DNA of 64,000 nt, from assembly GCF_025150085.1 (NCBI RefSeq), contig NZ_CP102280.1, positions 573,001 to 637,000 of the forward strand, in the 5' to 3' direction. The stretch is from Dorea longicatena. GTDB taxonomy: Bacteria > Bacillota > Clostridia > Lachnospirales > Lachnospiraceae. A program made the position numbers and the translations under genes. Numbering within the stretch: the first letter of the stretch is position 1; every line of letters begins with the position of its first letter. Shown in pieces: positions 40,823-62,070 of this stretch. Below the pieces are notes generated by a model. It made no database searches, was not told where the DNA came from, and saw only the letters and a program-made list of their open reading frames with translations.

Positions 40823-40853
40823 TTGACCTTCAAGTTACTTGATCGTTTACATT
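40823..40853 (+). promoter_or_regulatory. MerR-type promoter-operator, copy 1
   Basis: TTGACC (40823-40828), a 19-bp spacer, TACATT (40848-40853). The long spacer, typical of MerR-activated promoters, holds TCAAG-TTA-CTTGA (40830-40842). Nearly identical elements are at 58486-58516 (minus) and 60531-60561. It lies 81 bp before the gene at 40934. Confidence 0.8.
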
Positions 40854-40933
40854 ATAAGCAAGAAAAAGAAGTTTCTCGCAATGAAAGCGAGGCAAGTGTA
40901 AAGATTAAGTAGAAGAAAGGCTGGCGTAAGAGT

Positions 40934-41551
40934 ATGAAAGAGAAAATGAGAAAAGTAAGATATCCAATGTTGATTGTGTGGGGAATATTTATGGGAGCTG
41001 CAGGAACAGCAGGAGTAAAATCATCGTGGCATGTAATACCTGGCTGGTTGATAGGTGTTATTGTCATATTGGGAATCATGGTGATGTTAACCTGGATGAT
41101 TTCAGGGAAAAATGATAAGTCAATAAAAACACCTGAGAAGGAAACGGAAAAATTAACATCAAAGTACAATTCAGAAATTTCCGTTATTTCAAAAGCAGTA
41201 GAAGAGCCTGTGGAGTTGGAATTTTGGGGAAAACGAAATGGTATTGATCAATTTAGAGTAAAAAGTATCGCTGGACGGAATATTGTGAGTGATCATGTTC
41301 TGTTGATTAGTTTTGATGGTTCAGAAGTCAGGGATGTGGCATTAGATGCAGTTGTAACAGGGAAAGAACATTCGGAGTATTTTGGAAAGATTGAAATGCT
41401 TTATTGTAAGAGACAGCAGGAACATTGTGGGACGGAGAAACTTAAAACGGAAAAAATTGATAAAGTGATACTGAGTAAGGAACAATGGGAAAAAGAAACA
41501 GGAAAAATAAAATTATTGGAATTATGGAATTGTATTCCATTTGAAAAATAG
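40934..41551 (+). CDS. Uncharacterised membrane-anchored protein, predicted MerR target
   Basis: A 205-residue protein with two N-terminal helices (about 10-28 and 36-57: YPMLIVWGIFMGAAG and WLIGVIVILGIMVMLTWM). A charged linker follows, then a C-terminal soluble domain (about 90-200). That domain shares with the 60618-60995 product the elements F-x-V-x-S-[IV]-x-G-x-N, a LL[IL] strand, [ML][LI]YCK-x-Q[QK] and a closing W-x-K...GK. I do not recognise a known family. AGAAGAAAGGCTGGCG-type purine-rich sequence precedes the ATG. Expression should depend on the promoter at 40823. The function is unknown. Confidence 0.8.
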   Translation: MKEKMRKVRYPMLIVWGIFMGAAGTAGVKSSWHVIPGWLIGVIVILGIMVMLTWMISGKNDKSIKTPEKETEKLTSKYNSEISVISKAVEEPVELEFWGKRNGIDQFRVKSIAGRNIVSDHVLLISFDGSEVRDVALDAVVTGKEHSEYFGKIEMLYCKRQQEHCGTEKLKTEKIDKVILSKEQWEKETGKIKLLELWNCIPFEK

Positions 41552-41623
41552 TATGAAATACGGGAATATAGAAGGCAGTTATGAATAGCTGCCTTCTTAC
41601 TATGTAAAGAAGCACTGGTTTTG

Positions 41624-41662
41624 ATTGCCATGCATTTGAAAGAAGCTGCCACTGGCAGCTTC
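41624..41662. repeat. Dispersed palindromic repeat, copy B
   Basis: ATTGCCATGCATTTGAAAGA followed by AGCTGCCACTGGCAGCT, here a fuller palindrome. It lies between two convergent genes. Confidence 0.65.
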
Positions 41663-41672
41663 TCTTGCGTTT

Positions 41673-42782
41673 TTACAGAAAATCCTGACAAGATACCAGA
41701 AGATCAATCTTCTTCCACTGTGTCTCTTCATCAATACAGTTGCCCTCTTCAACGGAAGCAAAGCCACATTGCGGAGAAAGTGCGATCTGCTCTCCGACTA
41801 CGGAGCGGGCTTCGGCATAACGTTTTTTAAGAAAATCATGATCTTCCAGAATCGGGTTCTTGGTAGAGATTAATCCTGCGACAAAGATAGCATCCTTATC
41901 TTTCAGGACAGACCATGGAGCAAAGGAACCGGAACGGGCATCGTCGTATTCCACGAAGAATGCGTCATACGGAATTTCAGCGATTACCGGGGCAACGGAA
42001 TCGTAAAATCCATGGAACAGAGGATTTCCCTTGAAGTTTCCTTTACAGAAATGTGTTGCAATAAAGAAATCTTCCGGTTTGTGTTCCAGAGCTTTTGTTG
42101 ATACAAGCTGGAACCAGTTCAGAATCTGTCCTTTTGTATATCCAAGAGCAGTTATCTTTTTCTGGAAGTTCTCATCGATGAGATAAGTCCATGATGTATC
42201 ATCAATCTGAAGATAACGGCAGCCATGGTCGTAGAAATCTAAAATTGCATCCTGATAGGCTTTTGCAATATCCTCGATCAGTGCATGGATGTCTGTCCCG
42301 TAATAAGGTGTCTCTTTATTACCAAGCTGAAGGAAGTGATCAATCAGGATCATATTCGGACCGGAAATACATTTTTTAGCCGTAATACCGTCATATTTTT
42401 GTGTCAGAGAATGAAGATAGTCCCACGCACAAAGCTCCGGATGTGCCTTGTTCTTATCATAGAAGAACTTACCGGTAACGGTTCCAAGCTCAATTTCATT
42501 ACTGGTTCCATTGATTTCTTTTGTGAAATGAATGGTATCGAATCCATCAAATTCTTTGAGCCAGTCCAAATGCCACCACCTGCGGCGGAATTCTCCGTCT
42601 GTTACATATTTCAAACCGTGTGCCACTTCCTTTTCTACCAGTGATGCGATTACAAGATCTTCGGCTTGTGTTAATTCTTCTTTTGTAATCTTACCGTCTT
42701 TATAATCTTTACGTGCTTCTTTAATTTCTGCAGGTCGTAAAAAAGAACCTACGATGTCATAAGTTAATGTGTCTTTTATCAT
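41673..42782 (-). CDS. MetE C-terminal-domain-like protein (YxjG/YxjH family methyltransferase)
   Basis: A 369-residue single-domain relative of cobalamin-independent methionine synthase. It has VGSFLRP at the start, GEFRRRWWHLDWL, LQIDDTSW, and the zinc ligands of the family: His-x-Cys in ATHFCKGNF, a Glu in FFVEYDDARSG and the Cys of ALSPQCGFAS. It likely moves a methyl group onto homocysteine or a related thiol, but lacks the N-terminal half of MetE, so the methyl donor is open. Length matches B. subtilis YxjG/YxjH. GGAGGTTTTCAT precedes the ATG at 42782. It is monocistronic and divergent from the chromate transporter genes. Confidence 0.9.
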   Translation of the reverse strand: MIKDTLTYDIVGSFLRPAEIKEARKDYKDGKITKEELTQAEDLVIASLVEKEVAHGLKYVTDGEFRRRWWHLDWLKEFDGFDTIHFTKEINGTSNEIELGTVTGKFFYDKNKAHPELCAWDYLHSLTQKYDGITAKKCISGPNMILIDHFLQLGNKETPYYGTDIHALIEDIAKAYQDAILDFYDHGCRYLQIDDTSWTYLIDENFQKKITALGYTKGQILNWFQLVSTKALEHKPEDFFIATHFCKGNFKGNPLFHGFYDSVAPVIAEIPYDAFFVEYDDARSGSFAPWSVLKDKDAIFVAGLISTKNPILEDHDFLKKRYAEARSVVGEQIALSPQCGFASVEEGNCIDEETQWKKIDLLVSCQDFL

Positions 42783-43035
42783 ATGAAAACCTCCGATTTT
42801 TTGATTATTTGTCTTTGCTTAGTTGATGATTTTATTATGCCAGATGTAATAGTTTTTTGCATAATACTTAAAATTGTAGGTTGGGTATAGCTTTAAACTA
42901 TAGCATATGAAAAAGAAGATCAAAATTGCTGTTTGTGGATATTTAAAAATTTTTTATTATCCTAAAAAGTGTATAATATAAATATGACATGTGTTACATT
43001 AGAGTTGAAACCACAGGAGAAAAGGGAAATCAAAT

Positions 43036-43602
43036 ATGAATAGCAGAAAAAAAGTCTTATGGAAGATATTCATTTCAACATTATATTTAAGTGCATTTAC
43101 ATTCGGCGGCGGTTACGTGATCGTGAGCCTGATGAAGAAGAAATTTGTAGATGAGCTTCACTGGGTCGAAGAAAAGGAAATGCTGGATCTGGTTGCGATT
43201 GCACAGTCTTCACCCGGGGCAATCGCGATAAATGGAGCAATTGTTGTAGGATATAAGCTTGCAGGAATTGCTGGTGTACTGGTATCGATCATCGGAACAG
43301 TCATTCCGCCATTTGTCATTATAGCGTTACTTTCTGTCTGTTATAATGCGTTTCGCACTAATGAACTGGTAAGTCAGATGTTGGAAGGCATGCAGGCGGG
43401 AGTCGGAGCGGTGATCGCGTCAGTAACCTATGAGATGGGCGCGGGCATAGTGAAAGAAAAGGACGGAATCTCGCTGCTGATCATGGCAGGTGCATTTGTG
43501 GCATCCTGTGTATTTGAGGTAAATGTTGTGTATATTGTGATCATATGTGGATTGTTGGGTGTCTTACGCACATGTATGAGCAGGAAAGGAGCAGGCAAAT
43601 GA
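43036..43602 (+). CDS. Chromate transporter family protein, first half (short ChrA)
   Basis: A 188-residue membrane protein, one CHR domain: FTFGGGYVIVSLMKKKFVDELHWV and AIAQSSPGAIAINGAIVVGYKLAG are the family motifs. Short CHR proteins work as pairs, and the second follows with a 4-bp ATGA overlap. Chromate export is known for long ChrA members; for clostridial pairs the natural substrate is uncertain. Confidence 0.92.
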   Translation: MNSRKKVLWKIFISTLYLSAFTFGGGYVIVSLMKKKFVDELHWVEEKEMLDLVAIAQSSPGAIAINGAIVVGYKLAGIAGVLVSIIGTVIPPFVIIALLSVCYNAFRTNELVSQMLEGMQAGVGAVIASVTYEMGAGIVKEKDGISLLIMAGAFVASCVFEVNVVYIVIICGLLGVLRTCMSRKGAGK

Positions 43603-44156
43603 TATATCTGAAGCTTTTCTTAAGTTTTTTACAGGTTGGGATGTTCAGCTTTGGTGGTGGCTATGCGGCGATGCCTCTGATACAGGGACAGGTTGTGACG
43701 GGACATCATTGGCTTAGTATGTCAGAATTTACGGATCTTATTACAATCTCTCAGATGACACCGGGACCGATCGCAGTGAATTCAGCAACCTTTGTCGGAA
43801 TCAAGATTGCAGGGATACCGGGTGCTCTGGCGGCAACATTTGGATGCATTCTGCCCTCGTGTATTATCGTAACTGTCATTGCAAAACTCTATTTAAAATA
43901 TCGCAGCATGGAGGTACTGCAAGGTGTGCTGGGGTCTTTAAGACCTGCAGTTGTGGCGATGATCGCGGCGGCAGGAATCTCAATCCTGATCACGGCATTC
44001 TGGGGAAGCAGGGATCTGATCGCAGTTACAGGGACGAAGTGGAGTCTGGTACTGATTTTTGCAGTCTGCATGATATTACTTCGAAAAGTGAAAATGAATC
44101 CAATATGGGTGATGATTCTGGCCGGAGTGATGAAAGTGGGAATATCACTCATTTGA
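43599..44156 (+). CDS. Chromate transporter family protein, second half (short ChrA)
   Basis: A 185-residue CHR-domain membrane protein, partner of the preceding gene. It has FLQVGMFSFGGGYAAMPLIQ and TISQMTPGPIAVNSATFVGIKIAG. The start at 43599 overlaps the upstream stop (ATGA) and follows AAAGGAGCAGGCAA; a longer frame from 43545 lies inside the first gene and is rejected. A two-gene split is normal for the family, so this is not a broken gene. The MATE gene starts 6 bp later. Confidence 0.92.
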   Translation: MIYLKLFLSFLQVGMFSFGGGYAAMPLIQGQVVTGHHWLSMSEFTDLITISQMTPGPIAVNSATFVGIKIAGIPGALAATFGCILPSCIIVTVIAKLYLKYRSMEVLQGVLGSLRPAVVAMIAAAGISILITAFWGSRDLIAVTGTKWSLVLIFAVCMILLRKVKMNPIWVMILAGVMKVGISLI

Positions 44157-44162
44157 AGGTGG

Positions 44163-45587
44163 ATGAAAGGGAAAAATACGCCGGAAAAAACAAAAAATGT
44201 GGAAAAAGCAAGAGAGGAACAAAAAATGGGGGAAAAAACGATTGAAAAAAATGCGATCACGGAAGGTGTTATCTGGAAACAGTTGTTGATATTCTTTTTT
44301 CCAATCATGCTGGGAACATTGATCCAGCAATTATATACAACGGTAGATACGATCATAGTGGGACGTTTTGTGGGAAAAGCGGCACTTGCCAGTGTCGGCG
44401 GACCGGCAGCAGTATTATCGACGATCGTGGTTACATTCTTTAATGGTCTGGCGAATGGAGCCGCGGTTATCATCGCACAATATTATGGTGCAAAGGACAG
44501 AAAGAGTCTGCATGTGGGACTACATACGGCATATTTGTTCTCTATTGTGATCAGTCTGATCGTATCGCTGGTTGGTACAGTGCTGACACCGTGGCTGCTT
44601 ACAATTATGAATACACCGCAGGATATGATGGCAGATTCCACAATCTATCTCAGAATTTATTTTATGGGAATTCTGTTCACACTGGTCTACAATATGGGAG
44701 CAGCAATCATGAGAGCGGTCGGTGATTCCAGAAGACCACTTTTGTATCTGCTGGTCTGTTGTGTGATGAACATCATCCTGGATATCGTTATGGTGGTAGG
44801 AATGAAGATGGGAATTGCCGGAGCTGCGCTTGCAACTGTGATTTCGCAGTGTGTCAGTGCAATTCTGGTTACATGGTCGCTGACCAGGGCATATGATGCT
44901 ATGAAATTAAAGTTCCGGGAGCTTCGGATGGATGCCAGAGTATTGAAAAAAGAATTGAAGATCGGTGTTCCGGGAGCGCTTCAGGCATGTGCATACGGTG
45001 TGACGAATGTGGTGATCCAGGCATCGGTCAACAGCTTTGGTACGGATACCGCTGCTGGATGGGCAGCTTATGGAAAGCTTGACTTGATCTTCTGGACGGT
45101 ATCGAGTGCGCTTGGAGCAGCAGTGACGACATTTGCCGGACAGAATTACGGAGCAGGAAAGATGGACAGGGTATATAAGAGCATCCGGGTGAATGTGGTG
45201 ATCTCTTATATATTTACGGGAGCGATTATTGTAATACTTTTTGTATTCTGCGAGCCATTATATCATATGTTCACGACAGATCCGAAAGTTATTAAGATCG
45301 GAGTATATATGTTGCGTTTCCTGATACCGAGTTATCTGTTAAGTGTACTACTTGAAAATCTGTCGGGAGGCCTGCGCGGACTGGGAGATGTATTCTGGCC
45401 GACGGTATTTACGTTTGGAGGATTGTTCTTTGTAAGACTTCCGTGGATCATGATTCTTACGAAGATCCATCATGAGGTGGAAGTTCTGCTGATCAGCTAT
45501 CCGCTTGCATGGGGAGGGACACTGTTGTGTCTGATTCCGTATTATTTCTGGCGAAAGAAAAAGAGAATGAAACTGGCAGGAAGATAG
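44163..45587 (+). CDS. MATE-family efflux transporter
   Basis: A 474-residue, 12-helix pump of the MATE family (NorM/DinF type). It exports drugs or metabolites by sodium or proton antiport. Seen: FFFPIMLGTLIQQLYTTVDTIIVGRFVG, GANPV-like GGPAAVLSTIVV, and the repeated half starting KIGVPGALQACAYGVTNVVIQ. The start could be 44163 or 44226 (MGEKTIEKN, behind GAGAGGAAC); the polar first 21 residues make the later one quite possible. It follows the chromate pair by 6 bp and ends at a strong terminator. The substrate is unknown. Confidence 0.9.
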   Translation: MKGKNTPEKTKNVEKAREEQKMGEKTIEKNAITEGVIWKQLLIFFFPIMLGTLIQQLYTTVDTIIVGRFVGKAALASVGGPAAVLSTIVVTFFNGLANGAAVIIAQYYGAKDRKSLHVGLHTAYLFSIVISLIVSLVGTVLTPWLLTIMNTPQDMMADSTIYLRIYFMGILFTLVYNMGAAIMRAVGDSRRPLLYLLVCCVMNIILDIVMVVGMKMGIAGAALATVISQCVSAILVTWSLTRAYDAMKLKFRELRMDARVLKKELKIGVPGALQACAYGVTNVVIQASVNSFGTDTAAGWAAYGKLDLIFWTVSSALGAAVTTFAGQNYGAGKMDRVYKSIRVNVVISYIFTGAIIVILFVFCEPLYHMFTTDPKVIKIGVYMLRFLIPSYLLSVLLENLSGGLRGLGDVFWPTVFTFGGLFFVRLPWIMILTKIHHEVEVLLISYPLAWGGTLLCLIPYYFWRKKKRMKLAGR

Positions 45588-45592
45588 AGACA

Positions 45593-45642
45593 AAAAAGAG
45601 CTTGTGAAAAAACAGATAAATGTTTTATCACAGGCTCTTTTT
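45593..45642 (+). terminator. Terminator of the chromate/MATE operon
   Basis: AAAAAGAGCTTGTGA (45593-45607) pairs with TCACAGGCTCTTTTT (45628-45642) with one wobble. Confidence 0.9.
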
Positions 45643-45718
45643 ATCGCCATGCGTTCGTAAGGAGCTGCCAGTGGAAGGTCCTGTAGATTGCCATATGTCC
45701 GGAAAAAGCTGCCGGTAT
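45643..45718. repeat. Dispersed palindromic repeat, copy C with a partial second unit
   Basis: A full unit at 45643-45688 (ATCGCCATGCGTTCGTAAGG, then AGCTGCCAGTGGAAGG, ending CCTGTAGAT) begins exactly after the terminator T run. A decayed second unit overlaps at 45686-45718 (GATTGCCATATGTCCGG, AGCTGCCGGTA). It lies between convergent genes. Confidence 0.75.
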
Positions 45719-45719
45719 A

Positions 45720-46577
45720 TTAGTAATTTCCAAGTTTATTCAGATATTTATCAATGATATTCAGCCTTTTTTCAATCCCTTTTGCTCTGTGGCTGATGAT
45801 TTCAAGCAGAGCCTCTGTTACAAACTGTGGTCCGATCATAGAATTGAAAAATGTATTACTGTCTACAGGTACTGTAAGAAGTATGTCGGCATATTTCGCA
45901 AGAAGAGAACTTGGTTTGTCCGTAATGACTATAATAGAGGCACCGGCGTCATGTGCCATCTCTGCAGTTACTTCATCCTGCGAAGAATAACGAGGAAAAC
46001 TGAACAGTACCAGACAATCTGTATGTGAGATGTTACACATATGGTCGATCGGACTCATAGAAGTGGTGGTTGTCATAGTCACATGCGGAACCATCTGCTT
46101 CAGATACAGGAGAAAGAAATCCGCAAGACAGATATTGCCTCTTGTTGCTGCAATATATTTGTGCTTGCTGGAGACAATGAGATCAGCAGCCTGCTCAAAT
46201 GTCTCGATAGAATTCTGAATAAAGATTTCTTCCAGGTTATGTGCGGCATTCTTAAAATGCCGGTTGATATAATCAGAAGAGGTGTCTAATTTGGCCTGCT
46301 TTGCGATACGCTGGGATGGGACCGTAATACTGCTGGAAATGCTGAGTACCTTATCCTGATAATCTTTACGCAATGCTTTCTGAAAATCCATAAAGCCGTC
46401 AAATCCGATCGTACGGCTGAAACGGATCACGGAAGATTCACTTACCCCAAGTTTTAATGCGATCTCCGTTGATGTCATAAAACAGGCTTCCGAAGCATTA
46501 TCCAGAACATATTCTGCAATGATCTTTTGTGTCTTGGTAAGATGTGCAGAATGAAGCAATTCCTTCATATCTTTCAT
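45720..46577 (-). CDS. RpiR-family transcriptional regulator (HTH + SIS)
   Basis: A 285-residue regulator. The N-terminal helix-turn-helix (about 1-75) reads LTKTQKIIAEYVLDNASEACFMTSTEIALKLGVSESSVIRFSRTIGF. The C-terminal SIS domain (about 120-255) senses sugar phosphates in known relatives. The ATG at 46577 follows CGGAGG; a longer frame to 46622 lacks a site. It is divergent from the alanine symporter and Ald genes, so control of alanine use is a fair guess, with an unknown effector. Confidence 0.9.
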   Translation of the reverse strand: MKDMKELLHSAHLTKTQKIIAEYVLDNASEACFMTSTEIALKLGVSESSVIRFSRTIGFDGFMDFQKALRKDYQDKVLSISSSITVPSQRIAKQAKLDTSSDYINRHFKNAAHNLEEIFIQNSIETFEQAADLIVSSKHKYIAATRGNICLADFFLLYLKQMVPHVTMTTTTSMSPIDHMCNISHTDCLVLFSFPRYSSQDEVTAEMAHDAGASIIVITDKPSSLLAKYADILLTVPVDSNTFFNSMIGPQFVTEALLEIISHRAKGIEKRLNIIDKYLNKLGNY

Positions 46578-46926
46578 AATATAGTTCCTCCGAAAGTAAT
46601 ATTGATAATTAGATTTAAACATGAATCTGCAAAAGTTGCAAGACAGAGAACGTGGAAAAGAGAAAAATCACTCGGAAATGCGAAAAAAGAGGCAAAAACT
46701 TATAGATAATGATAATTTTTTGTCGTTATTTATATATCATGTAAATGAAGCATGCTCCAATCTTTTTGAGTCTAAATCGTCAAAAACATAAAAAATATTG
46801 TGCATAATGCATAAAAAGATATGTGAAAATAATAACATATATGTAAAATGTGCAAAAATAATTATATACAAAAAAACAAAGGTATGCTATTATCAAGGCA
46901 TCGAACGACGAAAGAGAGGAAAAGAA

Positions 46927-48324
46927 ATGTTACAAACAATTGAAAACGTGAATGCGGCCGTTAACAATTTTGTCTGGGGGGTTCCGGCAATGGTCTGTAT
47001 CATCGGTGTAGGGCTTGTACTTTCAGCTCGTACAGGATTTATACAGTTCCGAAAATTTGGGTATGCCATTAAGAATTCTATCGGACGTATCTTCACAAAG
47101 TCAGAAGCGAAAGAAGGTAGTATCACTCCATTCCAGGCAGTGTGTACGGCGCTTGCGGCAACGGTAGGAACGGGAAATATTGCCGGAGTTGCCGGTGCGA
47201 TTGCAATCGGAGGAGCAGGAGCAGTGTTCTGGATGTGGGTGTCCGCATTGCTTGGAATGTGTACGAAGTTCTCAGAAGTTACACTTGCGGTTCATTACAG
47301 AGAGAAGAATGCAGAGGGAGATTATGTTGGGGGCCCGATGTATTATATCAAGAACGGTCTTGGCAAGAAATGGTACTGGATGGCTTCGGTCTATGCGATC
47401 CTTGGAAGTTTGACAGTACTCGGAACAGGAAATGCAACACAGGTAAATACCATTACGACATCCATCGATTCAGCACTTATAAGCTACAATGTGATTGATG
47501 ACGCACAGATAAGTATGGTGAATCTGGTGATCGGAATTGTGATTGCAGCACTGGTAGCGGTTGTTTTACTTGGTGGAGTAAAACGTATCGGTACCGTAAC
47601 AGAGAAGCTGGTTCCATTCATGGCAGTATTCTATATCATCCTTGCAATCGGAGTAGTTGTACTGAATGCAGACAAAGTTCCACATGTATTTGAGATGATC
47701 TTTGTAGGAGCATTTAACCCGTCCGCATTTACCGGCGGTGTGGTTGGAAGCATGTTTATGACTATGAGACGTGGTGTTTCCAGAGGTATCTTCTCGAATG
47801 AGGCCGGAATTGGTACCGGATCGATCGCACATGCATGTGCAGATACAGATGAACCTGTAAAACAGGGAATGTTCGGAATCTTTGAAGTATTTGCTGACAC
47901 GATCGTGATCTGTACACTGACAGCACTGGTTATCCTTTGTGGAGGCGAAGGAATCCAGTACGGCGTGGCAGCAGGTGCGGAGCTTACCATCTCAGGATTC
48001 GTAACAACATATGGAAGCTGGGTGACGATCTTTACTGCAATTGCAATGTGCTGTTTCGCATTCTCAACGATTCTTGGATGGGGACTTTACGGAGCAAGAT
48101 GTGTCGAGTTTGTATTTACAACAAAGGTTGTGAAACCATTTATGATCGTGTATGCGTTGGTCGCAATCCTTGGTGCAACAGTGGATCTTGGTATCATCTG
48201 GGGAATTGCAGATACCTGTAATGGTCTGATGTCTATCCCTAACTTGATCGCATTATTCCTGTTGTCAGGAACAGTGGCAAAACTGGTAAAAGATTACTTT
48301 GCAAAACAAGAGAAAAAGAATTAG
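46927..48324 (+). CDS. AGCS-family sodium/alanine symporter
   Basis: A 465-residue transporter of the alanine/glycine:cation symporter family, 10-11 helices. Seen: ALAATVGTGNIAGVAGAIAIGGAGAVFWMW (the family signature), KFSEVTLAVHYREKN, GGPMYYIKNGLG and GIFSNEAGIGTGSIAHA. The start at 46927 behind AGAGAGGAAAAGA is chosen over a frame from 46798, which adds 43 AT-rich codons of leader. It lies before ald, 175 bp apart, so imported alanine would be deaminated by the next enzyme. Confidence 0.94.
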   Translation: MLQTIENVNAAVNNFVWGVPAMVCIIGVGLVLSARTGFIQFRKFGYAIKNSIGRIFTKSEAKEGSITPFQAVCTALAATVGTGNIAGVAGAIAIGGAGAVFWMWVSALLGMCTKFSEVTLAVHYREKNAEGDYVGGPMYYIKNGLGKKWYWMASVYAILGSLTVLGTGNATQVNTITTSIDSALISYNVIDDAQISMVNLVIGIVIAALVAVVLLGGVKRIGTVTEKLVPFMAVFYIILAIGVVVLNADKVPHVFEMIFVGAFNPSAFTGGVVGSMFMTMRRGVSRGIFSNEAGIGTGSIAHACADTDEPVKQGMFGIFEVFADTIVICTLTALVILCGGEGIQYGVAAGAELTISGFVTTYGSWVTIFTAIAMCCFAFSTILGWGLYGARCVEFVFTTKVVKPFMIVYALVAILGATVDLGIIWGIADTCNGLMSIPNLIALFLLSGTVAKLVKDYFAKQEKKN

Positions 48325-48366
48325 AAAGACAAAAAAATAACTTACTAGTGAAAAAAATAACTTTTA

Positions 48367-48395
48367 TTGCATTGGTAATTGTGTTGTGTTAGTAT
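48367..48395 (+). promoter_or_regulatory. Promoter of ald
   Basis: TTGCAT (48367-48372), 17 bp, TAGTAT (48390-48395), about 105 bp before the start codon. Confidence 0.6.
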
Positions 48396-48499
48396 GAGTT
48401 TAGGAAGAGATGAAGAATATTCTTCAACAAAATGAAGCTAAGAAAAATAATCTTCATTCAGAAAAGTAAACGGATTAAAATTTTAGGAGGTTTTTCAAA

Positions 48500-49615
48500 A
48501 TGAAAGTAGGATGTGTAAAAGAGATTAAAAACAACGAGTTCCGTGTAGGTATGACACCTGATAACGTTAAGAGTTATGTAAATGCAGGACACGATGTTTA
48601 TATCGAAAAAGGTGCTGGCGAAGGTTCAGGATTCTTAGATGCCGAATATGAGGCAGCTGGGGCTAAGATGATTGATACAGCAAAAGAAGTGTGGGATACA
48701 GTTGAGATGATGATCAAAGTAAAAGAGCCGCTTCCGGAAGAATATCCATTATTCCACGAAGGATTGATCCTTTATACATATCTCCACCTTGCAGCTGATA
48801 AGCCGCAGACAGACGCGCTCCTTGGAGCAAAGGTAAAAGGTGTTGCTTATGAGACTCTGATCGAAAGAAACGGAAGCATTCCTCTGCTTGCTCCAATGAG
48901 TCAGATCGCAGGACGTCTGAGTATTCAGGAAGGTGCAAAATACCTTGAAAAGAGATTCGGTGGAGAAGGCGTTCTCTTAGCAGGAGTTCCTGGAACACCA
49001 AAGGCTAACATCGTAATCCTCGGCGGCGGATCTGTAGGAACAAACGCTTGCAAGATCGCAGTTGGAATGGGAGCAAACGTAACAATCATGGATATCAACC
49101 TTCAGAGACTTGCTTATCTGGATGATATCTTCGGAGCACGTATTCAGACACTTGTTTCTAACGATGCAAATATTGAAAAAGCTGTAAAAGAAGCAGACCT
49201 CGTAATCGGATGCGTTCTGATTCCAGGAAAATCAGCTCCTAAGATCTTCAAGAAAAAATATCTGAAAGAGATGAAACCAGGCGCTGTATTTGTAGACGTT
49301 GCCGTTGACCAGGGCGGATGTGGTGAGACAACAAAGGTTACATACCATGATGATCCAATCTTTATTGAAGACGGTGTTGTTCATTACTGTGTAGGCAATA
49401 TGCCGGGAGCAGTTCCAAGAACATCTACAATCGCACTTACAAATGCAACATTATCCTACGGACTGCAGATTGCAGGAAAGGGACTGGAGCAGGCTTGCAA
49501 AGATAACGAAGTTATCTACTCTGCAATCAATACATATGATGGAAAATTAACATGTAAGAACGTAGCAGACAGCTTTGAATGTTATGAATACACAGATATC
49601 AAATCTGTTTGTTAA
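48500..49615 (+). CDS. ald: Alanine dehydrogenase
   Basis: A 371-residue enzyme that interconverts L-alanine and pyruvate plus ammonia with NAD. Seen: MKVGCVKEIKNNEFRVGMTP at the start, VKVKEPLPEEY with the catalytic Lys, TYLHLAADK with the catalytic His, and the Rossmann loop VILGGGSVGTNACKIAVGMG (about residues 172-190). DQGGCGETTKVT and GNMPGAVPRTST are further Ald signatures. TTAGGAGGT precedes the ATG. With the symporter upstream it makes an alanine-uptake-and-oxidation unit. The end differs from the usual by a Cys-rich tail (CKNVADSFECYEYTDIKSVC). Confidence 0.96.
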   Translation: MKVGCVKEIKNNEFRVGMTPDNVKSYVNAGHDVYIEKGAGEGSGFLDAEYEAAGAKMIDTAKEVWDTVEMMIKVKEPLPEEYPLFHEGLILYTYLHLAADKPQTDALLGAKVKGVAYETLIERNGSIPLLAPMSQIAGRLSIQEGAKYLEKRFGGEGVLLAGVPGTPKANIVILGGGSVGTNACKIAVGMGANVTIMDINLQRLAYLDDIFGARIQTLVSNDANIEKAVKEADLVIGCVLIPGKSAPKIFKKKYLKEMKPGAVFVDVAVDQGGCGETTKVTYHDDPIFIEDGVVHYCVGNMPGAVPRTSTIALTNATLSYGLQIAGKGLEQACKDNEVIYSAINTYDGKLTCKNVADSFECYEYTDIKSVC

Positions 49616-49685: not shown

Positions 49686-49703
49686 ATTAATTCCTATGAG
49701 TGG

Positions 49704-53493: not shown

Positions 53494-53548
53494 TCATATT
53501 AGTTATGTATAAGCCGGAGCAATCCGGATTACAAAAGTGATGAATAGA

Positions 53549-53583: not shown

Positions 53584-53650
53584 GAACCGCCAAATTGTGA
53601 TATTCTATAGATGATAATTTCGAAATATGGATAAAAGGAAAGTATAAGAT

Positions 53651-54434: not shown

Positions 54435-54441
54435 AGAAATA

Positions 54442-55278: not shown

Positions 55279-55325
55279 AAACATTCGTCAAATTGTACAA
55301 AATATATGAAAAAATCAAAAAATAC

Positions 55326-55353
55326 TTGAAAAAAATACATAAAATCCTATAAT
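55326..55353 (+). promoter_or_regulatory. Promoter of cstA
   Basis: TTGAAA (55326-55331), 16 bp, TATAAT (55348-55353), 52 bp before the start codon. Confidence 0.65.
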
Positions 55354-55404
55354 GAAGGTAGGTTAAGGAAATGTTAAGAAATGAAAGACATTGGAGGTGT
55401 TGGT

Positions 55405-56844
55405 ATGATTAGTTTTATCATTTGCTTGGCGCTACTTATAGGAGGGTATTTTGTCTATGGTAAAGTGGTTGAGAACACTTTTGCACCGGATGACAGAGAG
55501 ACACCGGCGGTTCGGATCAATGACGGTGTCGATTATGTGGTAATGCCACAGTGGAAATTGTTCCTGGTACAGCTGCTGAATATTGCTGGTCTGGGACCAA
55601 TCTTTGGAGCTATGCAGGGAGCATTGTGGGGACCGGTTGTATTCCTGTGGATTACATTTGGTACGATTTTTGCAGGTGGTGTACATGACTATTTTTCAGG
55701 TATGCTTTCTGAAAGAAATGACGGAGCATCTATTTCCGAAGTGTGCGGAATTTATCTTGGAAATGTAATGAAGAATGTGATGCGTGTATTCAGCGTTGTA
55801 CTTCTGGTCATGGTTGGTACGGTATTTGCAGTAGGACCGGCGGGGCTGATCGTTACATTGCTTGGCAATAAAGGCGTGACGGGAGCCTTGGCTAACCCGG
55901 AAGTATGGCTTTGGATCATCCTTGCATATTACTTTGTTGCAACATTTATTTCAATCGATAAGATCATTGGACGTATCTATCCATTGTTTGGTATCTGCCT
56001 GATCGTTATGGCAGTCGGTGTTATCGTTGGTATTTTCACGAATCCGAATTATACGATTCCTGAGATATGGACGCATTTCACTAACATGCATCCGGTAGGA
56101 AAGCCGATCTGGAGCTTTATGTTCATTACCGTAGCATGTGGAGCAATTTCCGGATTCCATTCTACACAGTCACCACTGATGGCACGTTGTATGAAATCCG
56201 AGAAACAGGGACATTTCGTATTCTATGGTGCCATGGTTGCAGAAGGTGTGATCGCACTGATCTGGGCAGCAGCAGGATGTTCCATTTATAAAATTACAGG
56301 TGGCCTGAGTACAGGTCTGAATGATATTCTTGCAAATGGTCAGTCAGCAGCAATCTATGATGTATGTATCAAGACGATGGGCGGTGTCGGTGTTGCACTT
56401 GCAATGATCGGAGTTATCGTATGCCCGATCACTTCCGGAGATACTGCATTCCGTAGTGCCCGTCTGGTACTGGCAGACTGGTTCAAAGTTGATCAGAATA
56501 AGATGCAGAAACGTCTGATGTTATGTGTTCCGCTTCTGGCAGTCGGAGCATTTGTCGGACATCTGGATTATGCAATCGTATGGAGATACTTCAGCTGGAC
56601 AAACCAGACACTTGCTATGATCGTTCTGTGGACAGCAAGTATGTATCTGTTCCGCGAGAAGAAGAATTACTGGATCACAGCGGTACCGGCAACATTCATG
56701 AGTGCAGTTTCCATGACATATTTCTTCTGTGCAGAAGAGTGCCTGGGACTTTCTACGAAGGTTGCTTATCCGGTAGGAATTATTCTGGCAGCAGCATTCC
56801 TTGGAATCTTTATCCATGCTACAAAGAAACCAATGAAAGCATAG
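55405..56844 (+). CDS. cstA: Carbon starvation protein CstA-family transporter
   Basis: A 479-residue membrane protein of the short CstA form. Seen: AVRINDGVDYVVMPQWKLFLVQLLNIAGLGPIFGAMQGALWGP (CstA core), GGVHDYFSGMLSERNDGASISEVCG and CGAISGFHSTQSPLMARC. Relatives take up peptides or pyruvate when carbon runs short. The start at 55405 follows GGAGGTGTTGGT; an ATG at 55381 has no site. It is transcribed alone from its own promoter. The C-terminus is that of the short Firmicutes type, without the extra domain of E. coli CstA. Confidence 0.94.
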   Translation: MISFIICLALLIGGYFVYGKVVENTFAPDDRETPAVRINDGVDYVVMPQWKLFLVQLLNIAGLGPIFGAMQGALWGPVVFLWITFGTIFAGGVHDYFSGMLSERNDGASISEVCGIYLGNVMKNVMRVFSVVLLVMVGTVFAVGPAGLIVTLLGNKGVTGALANPEVWLWIILAYYFVATFISIDKIIGRIYPLFGICLIVMAVGVIVGIFTNPNYTIPEIWTHFTNMHPVGKPIWSFMFITVACGAISGFHSTQSPLMARCMKSEKQGHFVFYGAMVAEGVIALIWAAAGCSIYKITGGLSTGLNDILANGQSAAIYDVCIKTMGGVGVALAMIGVIVCPITSGDTAFRSARLVLADWFKVDQNKMQKRLMLCVPLLAVGAFVGHLDYAIVWRYFSWTNQTLAMIVLWTASMYLFREKKNYWITAVPATFMSAVSMTYFFCAEECLGLSTKVAYPVGIILAAAFLGIFIHATKKPMKA

Positions 56845-56912
56845 TTGTAAGACAGCGTAATTTGAATACATAAAAAGGCAGAATGAATTGACAGAAATGA
56901 GATGATGAAAAG

Positions 56913-57917
56913 ATGAAACCACGAAGACTGGGTAATGTATCGATTCCGGATGAAGAATTAATAAAAGATAAAAAAGAATGTAAGAAGATCGGACCTTGTG
57001 GCATTGGAAAAAAGGCGGTGTATCTTAGCAGTTTCTATATTGACAGAAGGTATTACATACCGATCAGTTCTGTAAAAAGGATCTTCAAAAGAATCGCCAT
57101 GAGTAAGGGTGGATTTACAGGAAAAGGAGTATTCGGTACATTATCCTATCTTGTGGTCGTATATGAGGACGGAAAAGAAAAGCAATGCAATTTCAAACAT
57201 GAAGAAGATGTGGACAGATTTCTTGCGTACATAGAAGAAGAATATCCGGATATTCCGGTACACAGTCTTGAGGCTGAGAGAAAGCTGGCAGAGAAGGAAA
57301 GATGGCTGGCAGAAAAGCAAAGAGAAAGAAATGTATCGGAAGAAACAAAAAGATGTCTCGTGAAGCTGGAGCAGGCAGAACAGTATCTGAAAAAGCAATC
57401 GGATATCTATATGGACTTGAGTCAGTCGGCGAAGAAAAAGCGTACTTATGACAGAAGTAACCCGGCGTATAAATGGGTAGCTCTTGCAATCGTACTGATG
57501 GGCGGTGCGGCATTCGTCTATGGTATCTATGCATTGACGACCCATGCAGGATTTGGAATGTATTTCCTTTTGTTTGGTCTGGCTGCAATCTTCTTATTTG
57601 CCGGAGCGAATGTACTTCCGACTTCGAAGAATAATAAGAATTATATTGAGAAGCGGCTGACGGAATCGATCAGTCAGATGGAAGAGTATATCAGAGTGTA
57701 TCCGGATTTTCCGGTACCGGCTCACTATGCACATCCGATTGTGCTAAAGAGAATGCAGGAAATTATGAAAGAAGGGCGTGCGAGAAATATTCCGGAAGCA
57801 TTGCAGGTTTTGAAAAAAGATCTGAAAGCGTTGAATTCCAGCGTAGTCGTCGAGAAAGAAGAGTATGACGAAGTGGTAGCGATCAAACCGATGTTTCTGG
57901 TGATGGATTATAAATAA
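56913..57917 (+). CDS. Uncharacterised membrane protein with PH-like N-terminal domain
   Basis: A 334-residue protein that I cannot place in a named family. Residues about 30-115 alternate strands (YLSSFYIDRRYYIPISSVKRIFKR, YLVVVYEDGKEKQCNF, EEDVDRFLAYIEEEYPD) and resemble a bacterial PH-type domain. Next are a coiled-coil part (about 115-170, EAERKLAEKERWLAEKQRER), two helices (WVALAIVLMGGAAFVYGIYAL and MYFLLFGLAAIFLFAGANVL) and a cytoplasmic tail. No partner gene is evident; it is followed by a terminator and a dispersed repeat. Confidence 0.75.
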   Translation: MKPRRLGNVSIPDEELIKDKKECKKIGPCGIGKKAVYLSSFYIDRRYYIPISSVKRIFKRIAMSKGGFTGKGVFGTLSYLVVVYEDGKEKQCNFKHEEDVDRFLAYIEEEYPDIPVHSLEAERKLAEKERWLAEKQRERNVSEETKRCLVKLEQAEQYLKKQSDIYMDLSQSAKKKRTYDRSNPAYKWVALAIVLMGGAAFVYGIYALTTHAGFGMYFLLFGLAAIFLFAGANVLPTSKNNKNYIEKRLTESISQMEEYIRVYPDFPVPAHYAHPIVLKRMQEIMKEGRARNIPEALQVLKKDLKALNSSVVVEKEEYDEVVAIKPMFLVMDYK

Positions 57918-57930
57918 TTTGGCAGATAGA

Positions 57931-57990
57931 AAATGCGGTCGGCATATATTCTGAGATTATGAGTAAGAATATATTGCCGGCCGTATTTTT
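57931..57990. terminator. Long-stem terminator between convergent genes
   Basis: About 22 bp of stem (57931-57952 with 57966-57988, wobbles and one bulge) followed by TTTTT. Confidence 0.87.
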
Positions 57991-58005
57991 GAAATATCAA
58001 AGTAT

Positions 58006-58082
58006 ACAAGAGAAGATACCAGCGGGAGGTTCTTTGTAGCGCTATGTGTTTGAAAGAAGCCACCGGTGGCGGGTACTTAGAT
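58006..58082. repeat. Dispersed palindromic repeat, tandem copy G
   Basis: Half-unit 58006-58039 (ACAAGAGAAG... ending TTGTAG) plus unit 58040-58082 (CGCTATGTGTTTGAAAGA, AGCCACCGGTGGCGGG). The palindrome keeps pairing although its sequence differs from the other copies, as if by compensating change. The end overlaps the stop codon of the next minus-strand gene. Confidence 0.65.
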
Positions 58083-58403
58083 TTTAAGCTTCAATATATA
58101 TGCTAAAACCAGGAATAGTATTGCGATACATTTCACACCAATAGACACTCCGACATACCCCGGCAGCAAATATCCTTTTTGCTTTTTGCCTAATATTAAA
58201 GAAATGATATCGATTATAAAAAAGACGATTAGAACAATTGCAGCACCGAAGATCAGTAGCATAGCATCACCATTATTATGTGTCAGTGCAGTTACGACTC
58301 CAACATTTGTAATTGACATCCAGCTGTAGATTATGTATATCATGCATATTAAGTTAAAAATAATATCAAAGACAACTTTTTCGTTTCTTGTTCCGTTCTT
58401 CAT
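58077..58403 (-). CDS. Small uncharacterised membrane protein, predicted MerR target
   Basis: A 108-residue protein with three helices (VVFDIIFNLICMIYIIYSWM, AMLLIFGAAIVLIVFFIIDI, VGVSIGVKCIAILFLVLAYI) and short charged ends. No family is recognised. AAAGGGGACATTAA lies before the ATG at 58403. Its promoter (58486-58516, minus strand) carries the same 19-bp-spacer palindrome as the promoter of the membrane MerR gene 2 kb away. Its 3' end is overlapped by a dispersed repeat. The function is unknown; a membrane-stress role is inferred only from the shared control. Confidence 0.78.
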   Translation of the reverse strand: MKNGTRNEKVVFDIIFNLICMIYIIYSWMSITNVGVVTALTHNNGDAMLLIFGAAIVLIVFFIIDIISLILGKKQKGYLLPGYVGVSIGVKCIAILFLVLAYILKLKI

Positions 58404-58485
58404 TTTAATGTCCCCTTTCTTTAAGAGAATTTGGTAATAGCCGGCATTCTTATCAATTTTTTGTTTCTTCTCTTTTGTTGTCTAT

Positions 58486-58516
58486 AATATAAACCATCAA
58501 GTAACTTGAAGGTCAA
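58486..58516 (-). promoter_or_regulatory. MerR-type promoter-operator, copy 2
   Basis: Minus strand: TTGACC (58516-58511), 19 bp, TATATT (58491-58486), with TCAAG-TTA-CTTGA in the spacer (58497-58509). The operator core is identical in sequence to copy 1 at 40830-40842. Confidence 0.8.
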
Positions 58517-58552
58517 TAGTTTTAGAAAAAATAATTTGTAACTGCTTCTGTA

Positions 58553-58595
58553 TTGTGGAAAAATCAGAATATTGGTATAATGAGAACATACATTC
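58553..58595 (+). promoter_or_regulatory. Promoter with LexA (Cheo) box before the Y-family polymerase
   Basis: TTGTGG (58553-58558), 17 bp, TATAAT (58576-58581), then GAAC-ATAC-ATTC (58584-58595), one base off the Gram-positive LexA consensus GAAC-N4-GTTC. The box covers the expected transcription start, as in SOS genes. Confidence 0.65.
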
Positions 58596-58650
58596 GAAGT
58601 AGAAAAACTTTGTGAATGAATTTGTGAGTAAAGGAAGGAGGAGAACAGGC

Positions 58651-60177
58651 ATGGCAGACAAAGGACGGAGAAGCTATATCGCAATCGACCTGAAATCATT
58701 TTACGCATCGGTAGAATGCAAAGAAAGAGAACTGGATCCGATGACGACCAATCTGGTAGTAGCGGACAAAAGCCGTACGGAAAAGACTATCTGTCTGGCA
58801 GTGTCTCCTTCCTTGAAATCCTACGGGATACCGGGCCGTGCCAGACTCTTCGAGGTCGTGCAGAAGGTAAAAGAAGTGAATAAAAGACGGATCTGCATGG
58901 CACCCGGAAAGAAGTTTGCAGGAGCTTCCGTAGATAATGAAGAAATAAAACTACATCCGGAATTGGAACTGGATTATATTACGGCGGTTCCGAGAATGGC
59001 ATTATATATGAAATGCAGTACGGAGATCTACAACATTTATCTGAAATACGTTGCACCGGAGGATATCCATGTCTATTCCATTGACGAGGTATTCATGGAT
59101 GTGACCGATTACCTGAATACTTACCGGATGACGGCAAGAGAGCTGGCTGGAAAGATTATTCGGGAGATCCAGCAGGAGACGTCGATTGCGGCAACGGCCG
59201 GAATCGGAACGAATCTGTACCTGTGTAAAGTTGCCATGGATATTGTGGCGAAGCATATTGAGCCGGATCAGAATGGGGTGAGGATCGCAGAACTTACAGA
59301 AATTTCTTATAGGAAGCTTTTGTGGGCGCACCAGCCGATCACGGATTTCTGGCGTGTGGGCCCGGGGTATGCGAAGAAGCTTGCGGAAGTCGGATTATTT
59401 ACCATGGGAGATGTGGCAAGATGTTCTCTTGGTAAGCCGGGGGAATATTATAATGAAGATTTGCTGTACCGGCTATTTGGGGTGAATGCAGAACTTCTGA
59501 TTGACCATGCATGGGGATGGGAGCCATGCACGATCGCAGATGTGAAGGCGTATAAGCCCGAAAATAACAGTATGGGTGCGGGACAGGTACTGCATTGTCC
59601 ATATAATTTCGAGCAGACGAAGATCGTGGTAAAGGAAATGATCGATCAGCTGGCATTGGATCTGGTAGATAAACGTCTCGTAACGGATCAGATCGTTCTG
59701 ACGATTGGATACGACATCAAGAATCTGGAACAAGGAACGAAGAAAAATGTAGGGGAGATCACGACAGATTGGTACGGCAGGAAGCTGCCGAAACATGCAC
59801 ACGGAACCGCTAATCTGAAGCAGCATACTTCTTCATCGAGGCTGATGACACAGGCAGGTGTAAAGCTGTATCATGAAATTGTGAATCCGGATCTTCTGAT
59901 CCGCCGGATTACGATGGCAGCGAATCATGTGATCAGTGAGAAAGAGGTCCAGGAAGAACAGCAGTATGAACAGATGAATCTTTTTACAGATTTTGGAATT
60001 GCAAAGAAGGAAAAGGAAGAGAAGAATGAGAAGCTGGAACGGGAAAAGAAGATGCAGAAGGCGATGCTGGATATCAAGAAAAAATATGGGAAGAATGCAA
60101 TCTTAAAAGGAATGAATCTGCAGGAGGATGGAACTGCGATGGAACGGAACCGGCAGATCGGAGGACATAAAGCGTGA
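58651..60177 (+). CDS. Y-family (DinB/UmuC-like) translesion DNA polymerase
   Basis: A 508-residue error-prone polymerase. Seen: YIAIDLKSFYASVECKERELDP (first catalytic Asp, about residue 12), the SIDEVFMDVTDYL motif with the second metal ligands (about 145), and the helix-hairpin-helix region around FWRVGPGYAKKLAEVGL. Near the C-terminus, QMNLF is a sliding-clamp binding motif. It belongs to the UvrX/YqjW type rather than classical DinB (long middle insert and a Lys/Glu-rich tail). The start at 58651 follows GGAAGGAGGAGAACAGGC. A YolD-like gene overlaps by 4 bp. A LexA-type box suggests damage induction. Confidence 0.92.
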   Translation: MADKGRRSYIAIDLKSFYASVECKERELDPMTTNLVVADKSRTEKTICLAVSPSLKSYGIPGRARLFEVVQKVKEVNKRRICMAPGKKFAGASVDNEEIKLHPELELDYITAVPRMALYMKCSTEIYNIYLKYVAPEDIHVYSIDEVFMDVTDYLNTYRMTARELAGKIIREIQQETSIAATAGIGTNLYLCKVAMDIVAKHIEPDQNGVRIAELTEISYRKLLWAHQPITDFWRVGPGYAKKLAEVGLFTMGDVARCSLGKPGEYYNEDLLYRLFGVNAELLIDHAWGWEPCTIADVKAYKPENNSMGAGQVLHCPYNFEQTKIVVKEMIDQLALDLVDKRLVTDQIVLTIGYDIKNLEQGTKKNVGEITTDWYGRKLPKHAHGTANLKQHTSSSRLMTQAGVKLYHEIVNPDLLIRRITMAANHVISEKEVQEEQQYEQMNLFTDFGIAKKEKEEKNEKLEREKKMQKAMLDIKKKYGKNAILKGMNLQEDGTAMERNRQIGGHKA

Positions 60178-60488
60178 GAAATGAAAATATTTCGAAAGAA
60201 AATATTTCAACAAAACAGATTCTGCAAGAAAGAGAATCGGTAAAAAATATTTCTAAGGAAAACAGGATAGAATTTTCTGGAAAATTGCAGAAATCGGTAC
60301 TGGAAGTACAGCGGAAATATGGTGATATTCTGGGCTTTCCGCATCATGTATCAGAGACACATCCGCCGATGCCGACAGCAGATCGGGCGGCTCAGTTTAC
60401 ACCATTTGCGGCCCTGAACGGATATAAGGAAGCAATCGAAGAGACAGAGCGGATAGCAGAGGAAAAAGTCGAGCGGGAATACGAATAA
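60174..60488 (+). CDS. YolD-like protein
   Basis: A 104-residue protein started by GTG within the polymerase stop (GTGA), with GGAGG 9 bases upstream. The C-terminal half holds MPTADRAAQFTPFAALNGYKEAIEETERI, typical of YolD-like proteins, which in Bacillus pair with UvrX-type polymerases. The N-terminal 40 residues are polar and repetitive (NISKENIS). Probably an accessory or modulator of the polymerase; the mechanism is unknown. Confidence 0.85.
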   Translation: MRNENISKENISTKQILQERESVKNISKENRIEFSGKLQKSVLEVQRKYGDILGFPHHVSETHPPMPTADRAAQFTPFAALNGYKEAIEETERIAEEKVEREYE

Positions 60489-60530
60489 AGACAAAAAATA
60501 GAAGAAATGGGAAAAAATATGGTGAATCTC

Positions 60531-60561
60531 TTGACCTTCAAGCGGCTTGAAGGAATAGAAT
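60531..60561 (+). promoter_or_regulatory. MerR-type promoter-operator, copy 3 (autoregulatory)
   Basis: TTGACC (60531-60536), 19 bp, TAGAAT (60556-60561). The spacer centre is a perfect 8+8 palindrome CCTTCAAG-CGG-CTTGAAGG (60535-60553). It precedes the two-gene unit 60618-62070 that encodes the MerR protein itself, so self-activation is likely. Confidence 0.85.
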
Positions 60562-60617
60562 CACCTTAACAAAAAGAGAGAAGGATACAGATATCCGGAA
60601 CAGGGGAAGGTGAGAGT

Positions 60618-60995
60618 ATGGAAGATACGGGAAAGCTTGAAGAAAGAAATAAAATTGTTTCTGAGCTTCAGACAATAATAAAAGAACGGATTGAATTAAA
60701 AGAAATTGAAATACCGGGAACCATTACATTTCAGGTTATGTCTGTGGATGGTGGGAATGTACCGGTGGGAGCCGGTGAAGTGCTTCTGCTTCGTTACAGT
60801 GCGACTCATCTGGAATACAGTCATGAGTTGGAAGATGAGAACCAGAAATTTCATATGGCGCTTCATATCATTTATTGTAAAGAGCAGAAAGGTTTGTTTG
60901 GAAAAGTAAAGTACAAGACGATAAAACACCGCAAAGAAATCATTACAGAAGCAGACTGGAAAAATGGAAAGAAGGTGTCACTTTATGAAGATTAA
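60618..60995 (+). CDS. Uncharacterised soluble protein co-encoded with the membrane MerR regulator
   Basis: A 125-residue protein without helices for the membrane. The domain is beta-rich: ITFQVMSVDGGNVPVG, EVLLLRYSATHLEYSHEL, FHMALHIIYCKEQKG, then EADWKNGKKVSLYED. The order FxVxS[IV]xGxN, LL[IL], YCKxQ, WxK, GK is shared with the C-terminal half of the 40934-41551 protein, so they look like paralogues. GGGGAAGGTGAGAGT precedes the ATG. Its end overlaps the MerR start by 11 bp. No known family; possibly the effector or the signal partner of the regulator. Confidence 0.8.
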   Translation: MEDTGKLEERNKIVSELQTIIKERIELKEIEIPGTITFQVMSVDGGNVPVGAGEVLLLRYSATHLEYSHELEDENQKFHMALHIIYCKEQKGLFGKVKYKTIKHRKEIITEADWKNGKKVSLYED

Positions 60996-62070
60996 AGATG
61001 TAGAAAAACAGGTTGGCATTTCCAAGGCGAATATAAGATTCTACGAAGAAGAAGGACTGATCCATCCGGCACGTAATCAGGAAAATAATTACCGGGAGTA
61101 TTCAGAAGCAGATGTAGAACAGCTTCAGGAAATTAAAAAGTTGCGTCTGATCGGTATTCCGGTACAGGAGATCAAAGAAATCTATGAAGACAGACTGACC
61201 TTGCAGGAAGCTTTATCCCGTAGACTAGACGAGATCGAAAAAGAAGAACGTACATTAAAGGAAACGAAACTGACCTGCCAGAAAGCACTGAAAAGTAAGC
61301 TTGATATTACATCGATCGATCAGCTTGAGATTGAGGAAGAAAAAGAAGAGTGGCAGGTACGTCTGGCAATTCTTTTGAAAGAGGATATTGTACAGAAGAA
61401 ATTAAGCAGGGATGAGATGAACAATGAGATTGCATGCTTTTTTATTGCAGGAACGATCTTAAGTGTGATATCTATATGGCTGCTTCCGAAGGATTATATC
61501 GGAACACATCTTTATGTCGGGCTGATTTCACTTGCAGCTGTGGTAGGTCTGCTGATCATAGGAACATGTTCGGCGAATATGAAAGTGCATCTGACATTGT
61601 TGCTTCTGGGGGCAGTTGTACAGCCTGTCGGACTTTTTACAATCGGAACAGTGATGGGAAGAGGATATATTGTGTGTCGTGATACAGCGGTATTGAAGCA
61701 GTATGTAATCTACCTGTATGGCGGGGCATTTATTCTTGCAATTATATTGTGGATGGGCTCAAAGCTGAACCGCTATATTCTGAACAAACTCTGGATCAGT
61801 ATGCTTGCAAGCCTGATCATGGCAGGAGTGATAGCACAGATGCTGAATCAGAAGTATGGACACTTGATGGCAACAGGCGAACTTATCGTGGGATTTTTGT
61901 GTGCTGTTATTTATCTTGCTGCTGTATCCGGAACATGGACACTGGCGAATGCAGACTGGGGAAAATATAACCGGTATCATGCAGTGTATACGTCGAACAA
62001 GATGATCAATGTATTCGCAACGATATTCAATGCAGCCGGATACTATAGTGGAAAGAACTGGAGGAGATAG
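60985..62070 (+). CDS. MerR-family regulator fused to a six-helix membrane domain
   Basis: A 361-residue one-component membrane regulator. The N-terminal MerR winged helix (about 1-70) is complete: IKDVEKQVGISKANIRFYEEEG, NYREYSEADVEQLQEIKKLR. A coiled-coil dimer region follows (about 75-125, with one Cys in KLTCQKAL). About residues 142-345 hold six helices (e.g. FFIAGTILSVISIWLL, VGLISLAAVVGLLIIGTC, LLLLGAVVQPVGLFTIG), with conserved-looking Cys and Pro. Ordinary MerR proteins are soluble, so signal reception in the membrane is inferred. The start at 60985 overlaps the upstream gene; the 60964 ATG would add seven residues before the HTH. Likely regulator of the three palindromic promoters. 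Confidence 0.88.
   Translation: MKIKDVEKQVGISKANIRFYEEEGLIHPARNQENNYREYSEADVEQLQEIKKLRLIGIPVQEIKEIYEDRLTLQEALSRRLDEIEKEERTLKETKLTCQKALKSKLDITSIDQLEIEEEKEEWQVRLAILLKEDIVQKKLSRDEMNNEIACFFIAGTILSVISIWLLPKDYIGTHLYVGLISLAAVVGLLIIGTCSANMKVHLTLLLLGAVVQPVGLFTIGTVMGRGYIVCRDTAVLKQYVIYLYGGAFILAIILWMGSKLNRYILNKLWISMLASLIMAGVIAQMLNQKYGHLMATGELIVGFLCAVIYLAAVSGTWTLANADWGKYNRYHAVYTSNKMINVFATIFNAAGYYSGKNWRR

Follow-up and report, generated by a model that had tools for sequence, protein, structure and literature searches.

Which regulator serves three look-alike promoters in the genome of Dorea longicatena, and what do these promoters control? They lie in a stretch of 64,000 nucleotides (contig NZ_CP102280.1, positions 573,001 to 637,000, forward strand; the whole stretch is called the window below), and one of them stands before the only MerR gene of the window. 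In textbooks, MerR activators are soluble proteins that sense metals and drugs; the MerR protein encoded here is predicted to be embedded in the membrane. Judging from sequence, the three promoters probably form the regulon of this autoregulated one-component MerR, which would activate them by under-twisting their spacers in response to a membrane-sensed signal.

The three putative sites have in common TTGACCTTCAAGNNNCTTGA, a 19-bp spacer and a -10 box of the form TANNNT:

40823-40853, plus strand: MerR-type operator/promoter 1, with -35 TTGACC (40823-40828), dyad core TTCAAG-TTA-CTTGA (40829-40842), -10 TACATT (40848-40853) and a 19-bp spacer; full site TTGACC-TTCAAGTTACTTGATCGTT-TACATT.
58516-58486, minus strand: MerR-type operator/promoter 2, with -35 TTGACC (58516-58511), dyad core (58510-58497), -10 TATATT (58491-58486) and a 19-bp spacer; full site TTGACC-TTCAAGTTACTTGATGGTT-TATATT.
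60531-60561, plus strand: MerR-type operator/promoter 3, with -35 TTGACC (60531-60536), a perfect 8-bp dyad CCTTCAAG-CGG-CTTGAAGG, -10 TAGAAT (60556-60561) and a 19-bp spacer; full site TTGACC-TTCAAGCGGCTTGAAGGAA-TAGAAT.

All three stand where the first-pass annotation had placed promoters containing TTGACC, a dyad and a spacer of 19 bp. Their dyad core, TTGACCTTCAAG...CTTGA, is identical, and each site is followed by a correctly oriented open reading frame (ORF), starting at 40934 (plus), 58403 (minus) and 60618 (plus). Operator 3 is presumed to be autoregulatory.

The specificity of the sites was examined in the whole genome, a single contig of 2,919,963 bp, with a 20-mer and with a 31-mer that includes the -10 box. 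At up to two mismatches, the 20-mer returned just these three sites, each of them exact, and its backward control gave one match. The 31-mer, at up to three mismatches, again returned just the three sites, with zero control matches. Within the window, five matches to the 20-bp pattern were found at up to three mismatches, namely the three exact sites and the reverse readings of two dyads at three mismatches; 100 shuffles of the window gave a mean of 0.26 matches and a maximum of 3. The first-pass annotation had staked its reading on the motif not being scattered at random over the genome, and it is not scattered, since the whole-genome scans return just the three sites.

The gene behind operator 3 was as follows:

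60985-62070, plus strand: predicted membrane-embedded MerR regulator, 361 amino acids, with a MerR helix-turn-helix (HTH) at residues 1-70, a coiled-coil helix at 73-103, six membrane-type helices within 142-323 (nucleotides 61408-61953) and a short C-terminal tail.

Alignment with relatives favoured the ATG at 60985 (MKIKDVEK) as its start over the longest-ORF start at 60964. The HTH matched PF13411 (MerR_1) at 2.1e-19, with 69.8 bits against a cut-off of 21.6, as did those of 14 out of 14 aligned relatives, and it is followed by the dimerising coiled-coil helix typical of the MerR family. The head resembles the structures of MtaN, CueR, SoxR and CadR; the PDB matches listed span the HTH and the coiled coil. 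That the protein sits in the membrane, as first annotated, is supported by six hydrophobic stretches in the hydropathy profile and by an AlphaFold2 model built on 14 aligned sequences (mean predicted local distance difference test 78.7, predicted template modelling score 0.56), in which the HTH, the long helix 73-103 and six membrane-type helices in 142-323 are all seen. The membrane part matched no Pfam family above cut-off, and the 14 aligned members gave just single weak non-HTH matches.

The MerR match behind operator 3 is the single one in the window, in agreement with the first-pass annotation, and five weaker matches lie elsewhere in the genome. None of these other five MerRs (0/5) has a predicted membrane helix. 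Around the starts of their ORFs, a TTGAC site with other arms was found for two (L006, L008) and no site for three. L006 and L008, both outside the window, hold soluble MerR genes with these MerR-type sites near their starts, and their sites are possible further regulons.

Relatives of the membrane MerR were found at E ≤1e-18 in 79 of 397 sampled family genomes, own genome included; many of these matches do not extend beyond the head, and their helices were not all checked. The genome scan matched at least 596 stretches. A relative is encoded in 456 of those listed; they were ranked by their likeness to the membrane MerR of the window, and the top 80 were taken as loci. The MerR ORF was found by motif in 76 of them (not in L137, L150, L156 and L159), and 74 have at least 100 bp upstream (L096 and L102 have less). 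By a simple hydropathy threshold, all 74 of these relatives have predicted membrane helices after residue 100: one in 3 loci, two in 41, three in 4, four in 12, five in 4 and six in 10. A TTGACN-N19-TANNNT site was present within 160 bp upstream in 63 of the 74. The same site with a spacer of 17, 18 or 20 bp, each length counted independently, was present in 0 of the 74, and the reversed-sequence control gave 2 of 74, with spacers of 17 and 20. These loci are related to one another and thus are not 74 independent events.

Among the 15 multi-helix loci (L085-L098, L122), 14 carry a CTTNAAG-type site at up to two mismatches. The exception, L086, has no such site and adjoins a transposase-like ORF (a label given by reading, with no family search). 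Over the whole set, the arms of the dyad vary from clade to clade (among them TTCAAG, TTCCAC and GTAAAC); in 65 sequences, the more alike two HTHs are, the more alike their arms tend to be (Mantel r 0.59, reached by 0 of 1000 permutations). Because the site recurs upstream of MerR in relatives, autoregulation is, as read from these promoters, the predicted usual layout of the family, which ties the window motif to the window MerR. The relatives showed no sign of mobility: 0 of 24 candidate viral contig stretches encode a relative, and plasmids gave no match at 1e-20.

The genes that would be served by the three operators, and the one next to the MerR gene, are listed here:

40934-41551, plus strand: membrane-tethered partner-domain protein, 205 amino acids, under operator 1; N-terminal hydrophobic part at about residues 8-53 (a hairpin by eye), and a domain at about 77-199 homologous to the 60618-60995 product.
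58077-58403, minus strand: small three-helix membrane protein, 108 amino acids, with three hydrophobic stretches, under operator 2.
60618-60995, plus strand: soluble partner protein, 125 amino acids, overlapping the MerR start by 11 nucleotides; a homologue lies upstream of the membrane MerR in Faecalicatena contorta ET55.
62076-62318, plus strand: RDAC family protein (NF047998, 2.7e-30), starting 5 nucleotides after the MerR stop.

The products of 40934 and 60618 had been taken for unrelated proteins of no known family. They share a domain, with 28% identity over 119 columns (2e-5), so that this part of the first-pass annotation had to be given up. Its description of the 40934 product as two-helix is reasonable by eye but is not borne out by the hydropathy measure, in which only one stretch exceeds the threshold. 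The 126-amino-acid partner of ET55 is 35% identical to the 40934 domain (1e-23) and 25% identical to the 60618 protein (5e-9). In ET55 (L095; genome G356) a six-helix MerR gene immediately follows this partner gene; the partner is preceded by an exact operator, the MerR by one with a single mismatch. The partner domain thus stands under this operator in 3 of 3 genes seen. Searches with 60618 or 40934 found it in 2 of 397 family genomes, the own genome and ET55. When 98 genomes related to ET55 were searched with a profile, ET55 itself was the only match (1/98), and among the ORFs of the 80 loci a clear score was given by the ET55 gene only.

A shared chromosomal locus with ET55 was considered and rejected. 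When the last 28 kb of the window were compared with the ORFs of L076, just the partner-domain and MerR proteins matched, and the two loci are therefore not syntenic there. Operator 1 and the ET55 partner operator both lie 3' of a tRNA array that ends in tRNA-Leu, at a gap of ~130 bp in the window (region 40603-40823) and ~75 bp in L095 (region 3718-3876). The arrays and the neighbouring genes differ, and the proximity may reflect chance or a favoured insertion place.

The 58077 product has the three hydrophobic stretches ascribed to it at first reading. It matched 9 of 397 family genomes at E ≤0.001, own genome included, and a clear relative was found only in G001 (42% identity, 2.8e-22), a genome of the same genus. 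The G001 relative (L169 1495-1869) is placed beside RpiR-like and alanine dehydrogenase-like genes, which by eye are like those at window 45720-49615, i.e. at a different place. The weaker matches (7 genomes, 1e-4 to 1e-3) were left unused; the ones opened (L170, L173, L174) are different-looking membrane proteins. Three further assignments of the 58077 protein were tried and dropped: a fragment of the membrane domain of MerR (hhalign probability 0.4%), a likeness to a 143-amino-acid membrane protein of genome G059 (phmmer E 5.9) and DUF2975 (17.9 bits against a gathering score of 27). The RDAC family protein scored 104.2 bits against a cut-off of 26, and its gene is possibly the third of the MerR operon; the 6138 ORFs of the 80 relative loci include no match to it.

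Some relatives carry a second operator. In G059 (L090) and G406 (L122) it is one mismatch from the looser pattern and lies before a free-standing copy of the membrane domain of MerR; these copies are 62-63% identical to the membrane part of the G059 MerR. In G059 (L075 1682-7291), one strand holds in a row the operator, the membrane-domain copy, the 143-amino-acid membrane protein, an FtsX-type permease, an ATP-binding cassette (ABC) ATPase, PadR and a HAAS-domain protein. In G406 the membrane-domain copy is followed by PadR, without the 143-amino-acid protein, the permease and the ATPase. The G059 row is a candidate for a larger regulon of the membrane MerR family, and its transporter genes would be co-transcribed from the operator. 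A BceB-type transporter was not accepted for G059 and was kept as a hint: one FtsX domain scored above cut-off and an ATPase is present, and the permease matched no NCBIfam above cut-off. At L143 10375 (minus strand), a near copy of the locus's own operator, with an imperfect TANNNT, precedes a 161-amino-acid lipoprotein-like ORF.

Several observations weigh against a three-promoter regulon of this kind or limit its reach. The site TTGACN-N19-TANNNT is missing from 11 of the 74 relatives (L086, L113, L114, L124, L133, L140, L141, L142, L145, L154 and L161), and the fixed CTTCAAG pattern is absent from 10 of 29 relative loci at up to four mismatches. The looser pattern, at up to two mismatches in 13 genomes, gave 30 matches but also 15 control matches; these genomes were chosen partly for sites already found by the fixed pattern, which biases the rate and makes 63 of 74 the fairer count. 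The covariation of HTH and operator is also expected from shared descent; the -10-side flank, a partial control, gives r 0.44 (likewise 0 of 1000). Membrane MerRs do not have this dyad type to themselves: in G027, a site with one mismatch stands next to a soluble MerR. In the fetched flanks (up to 6 kb), just 4 of the 64 loci with their own site (L090, L095, L122, L143) showed further sites, so most membrane MerR relatives seem to be solitary and autoregulated, or to have distant targets. As for the targets, the partner domain was found in just two genomes. The three-helix protein is tied to the MerR by its operator alone, and its G001 relative lies at a contig end, with its promoter off the contig. 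The G027 site itself (L010 1501, minus strand) is flanked by two divergent genes, one for the soluble MerR and one for a transporter that by eye is MATE-like.

Besides activating, MerR proteins can also repress, and they can do so without ligand. The membrane MerR could therefore be mainly a repressor of its own operon and of the two others, released by the signal, instead of a DNA-twisting activator; that the sites overlap the promoter would suit this. On the other side, no relative has a site at a 17- or 18-bp spacer, and passages of PMC8113463 describe spacers of 19-20 bp as suboptimal in length and as reshaped by MerR proteins to activate transcription. We regard such a repressor as unlikely. 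Another explanation accepts autoregulation and leaves sites 1 and 2 to another MerR of the genome, or takes them for inert promoter copies. It can draw on the five other MerR matches, and in the alignment of the three sites, 1 and 2 resemble each other more than site 3 outside the dyad too, as is expected of a duplicated promoter. Against it, the core is the same at all three sites, the other five MerRs have quite different arms or no site, and the partner domain is found both in the site-1 target and in the MerR operon; this explanation appears improbable to us. That the three TTGACC dyads are a chance finding or a repeat-element family unrelated to MerR would fit their clustering within 20 kb of a 2.9-Mb genome. 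Each of them, though, has a correctly oriented ORF at promoter distance, a site of this kind recurs upstream of MerR in relatives, and the shuffles do not reproduce it, which leaves this idea with hardly any weight. A regulon of three long-spacer promoters centred on the membrane MerR is well supported by comparison: by the uniqueness of the sites, the 63 of 74 relatives, the ET55 partner operator and the other arms or missing sites at the other five MerRs. The first-pass annotation thus held up as to the MerR regulon, and it had missed the kinship of the partners and the large family.

The activation mechanism would run as follows. The MerR head and coiled coil, carried on the six-helix membrane domain, would bind the dyads within the 19-bp spacers at the three promoters. 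Sensing of a signal, in the membrane or across it, would move the coiled coil, the spacer would be under-twisted and RNA polymerase would fire. Targets would be the own operon (soluble partner and MerR, possibly RDAC), the membrane-tethered partner and the small three-helix protein. We infer binding, activation and an envelope or membrane signal for these putative operators. For the partner-domain proteins, the most likely role is to act on the regulator in turn, as feedback or signal relay. Feedback is favoured because products under these operators repeatedly resemble the regulator's own parts (the partner, its tethered form, the sensor domain on its own). An envelope signal is plausible; a stress or envelope response, as first proposed, is a guess, with the G059 operator before a membrane-domain copy, an FtsX-type permease and an ATPase as the sole hint.

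How does this regulator compare with known systems? Like the classical soluble MerR activators (CueR, CadR, MtaN, BmrR, EcmrR), it has an HTH head and a coiled coil. Unlike them, it has a six-helix membrane domain as its presumed sensing part, and not a cytosolic metal or drug pocket. The bacitracin regulator BcrR has an XRE-type HTH and serves an adjoining ABC transporter; the HTH of the window's regulator is of the MerR type. In the text of PMC13384398, BcrR is a membrane-bound one-component DNA-binding protein that perceives its stimulus directly. It is the nearest working analogue of the membrane MerR. MerR dimers bind a dyad and reshape spacers of 19-20 bp, according to passages of PMC8113463. 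In the window, 3 of 3 sites have such an over-long spacer, of 19 bp, with the dyad inside it, as for EcmrR (PMC8113463) and metal regulators (PMC1526738). The transmembrane transcription regulators (TTRs; PMC10269533) join a DNA-binding domain and at least one membrane region in one polypeptide, as do the HTH and the six predicted membrane helices here. The main text of that paper does not name MerR, and MerR-type members may stand in its supplement. In the open-licence literature, by title and start of abstract, no description of a membrane-bound or transmembrane MerR family was found. The MerR head and the promoter logic are known, then, and so, as the TTR idea, is a single protein that binds DNA and has membrane helices. 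New here is a MerR head joined to a multi-helix membrane domain, in a wide family with no description found.

The circuit, with just three targets behind three clean sites, is of a size at which it could be tested in full. More loosely, we suggest as a tentative possibility that a broad Clostridia family (Lachnospiraceae, Oscillospiraceae) of membrane MerRs exists, that some of its small regulons encode the regulator's own sensing parts, whether partner domains, their tethered versions or sensor-domain copies standing alone, which would tune or damp the switch, and that promoter twisting in this family may be driven by the state of the membrane, not by a cytosolic ligand. If the switch in D. 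longicatena operates in the way proposed, a membrane event would be converted, at the membrane and in a single step, into twisting of promoter DNA.

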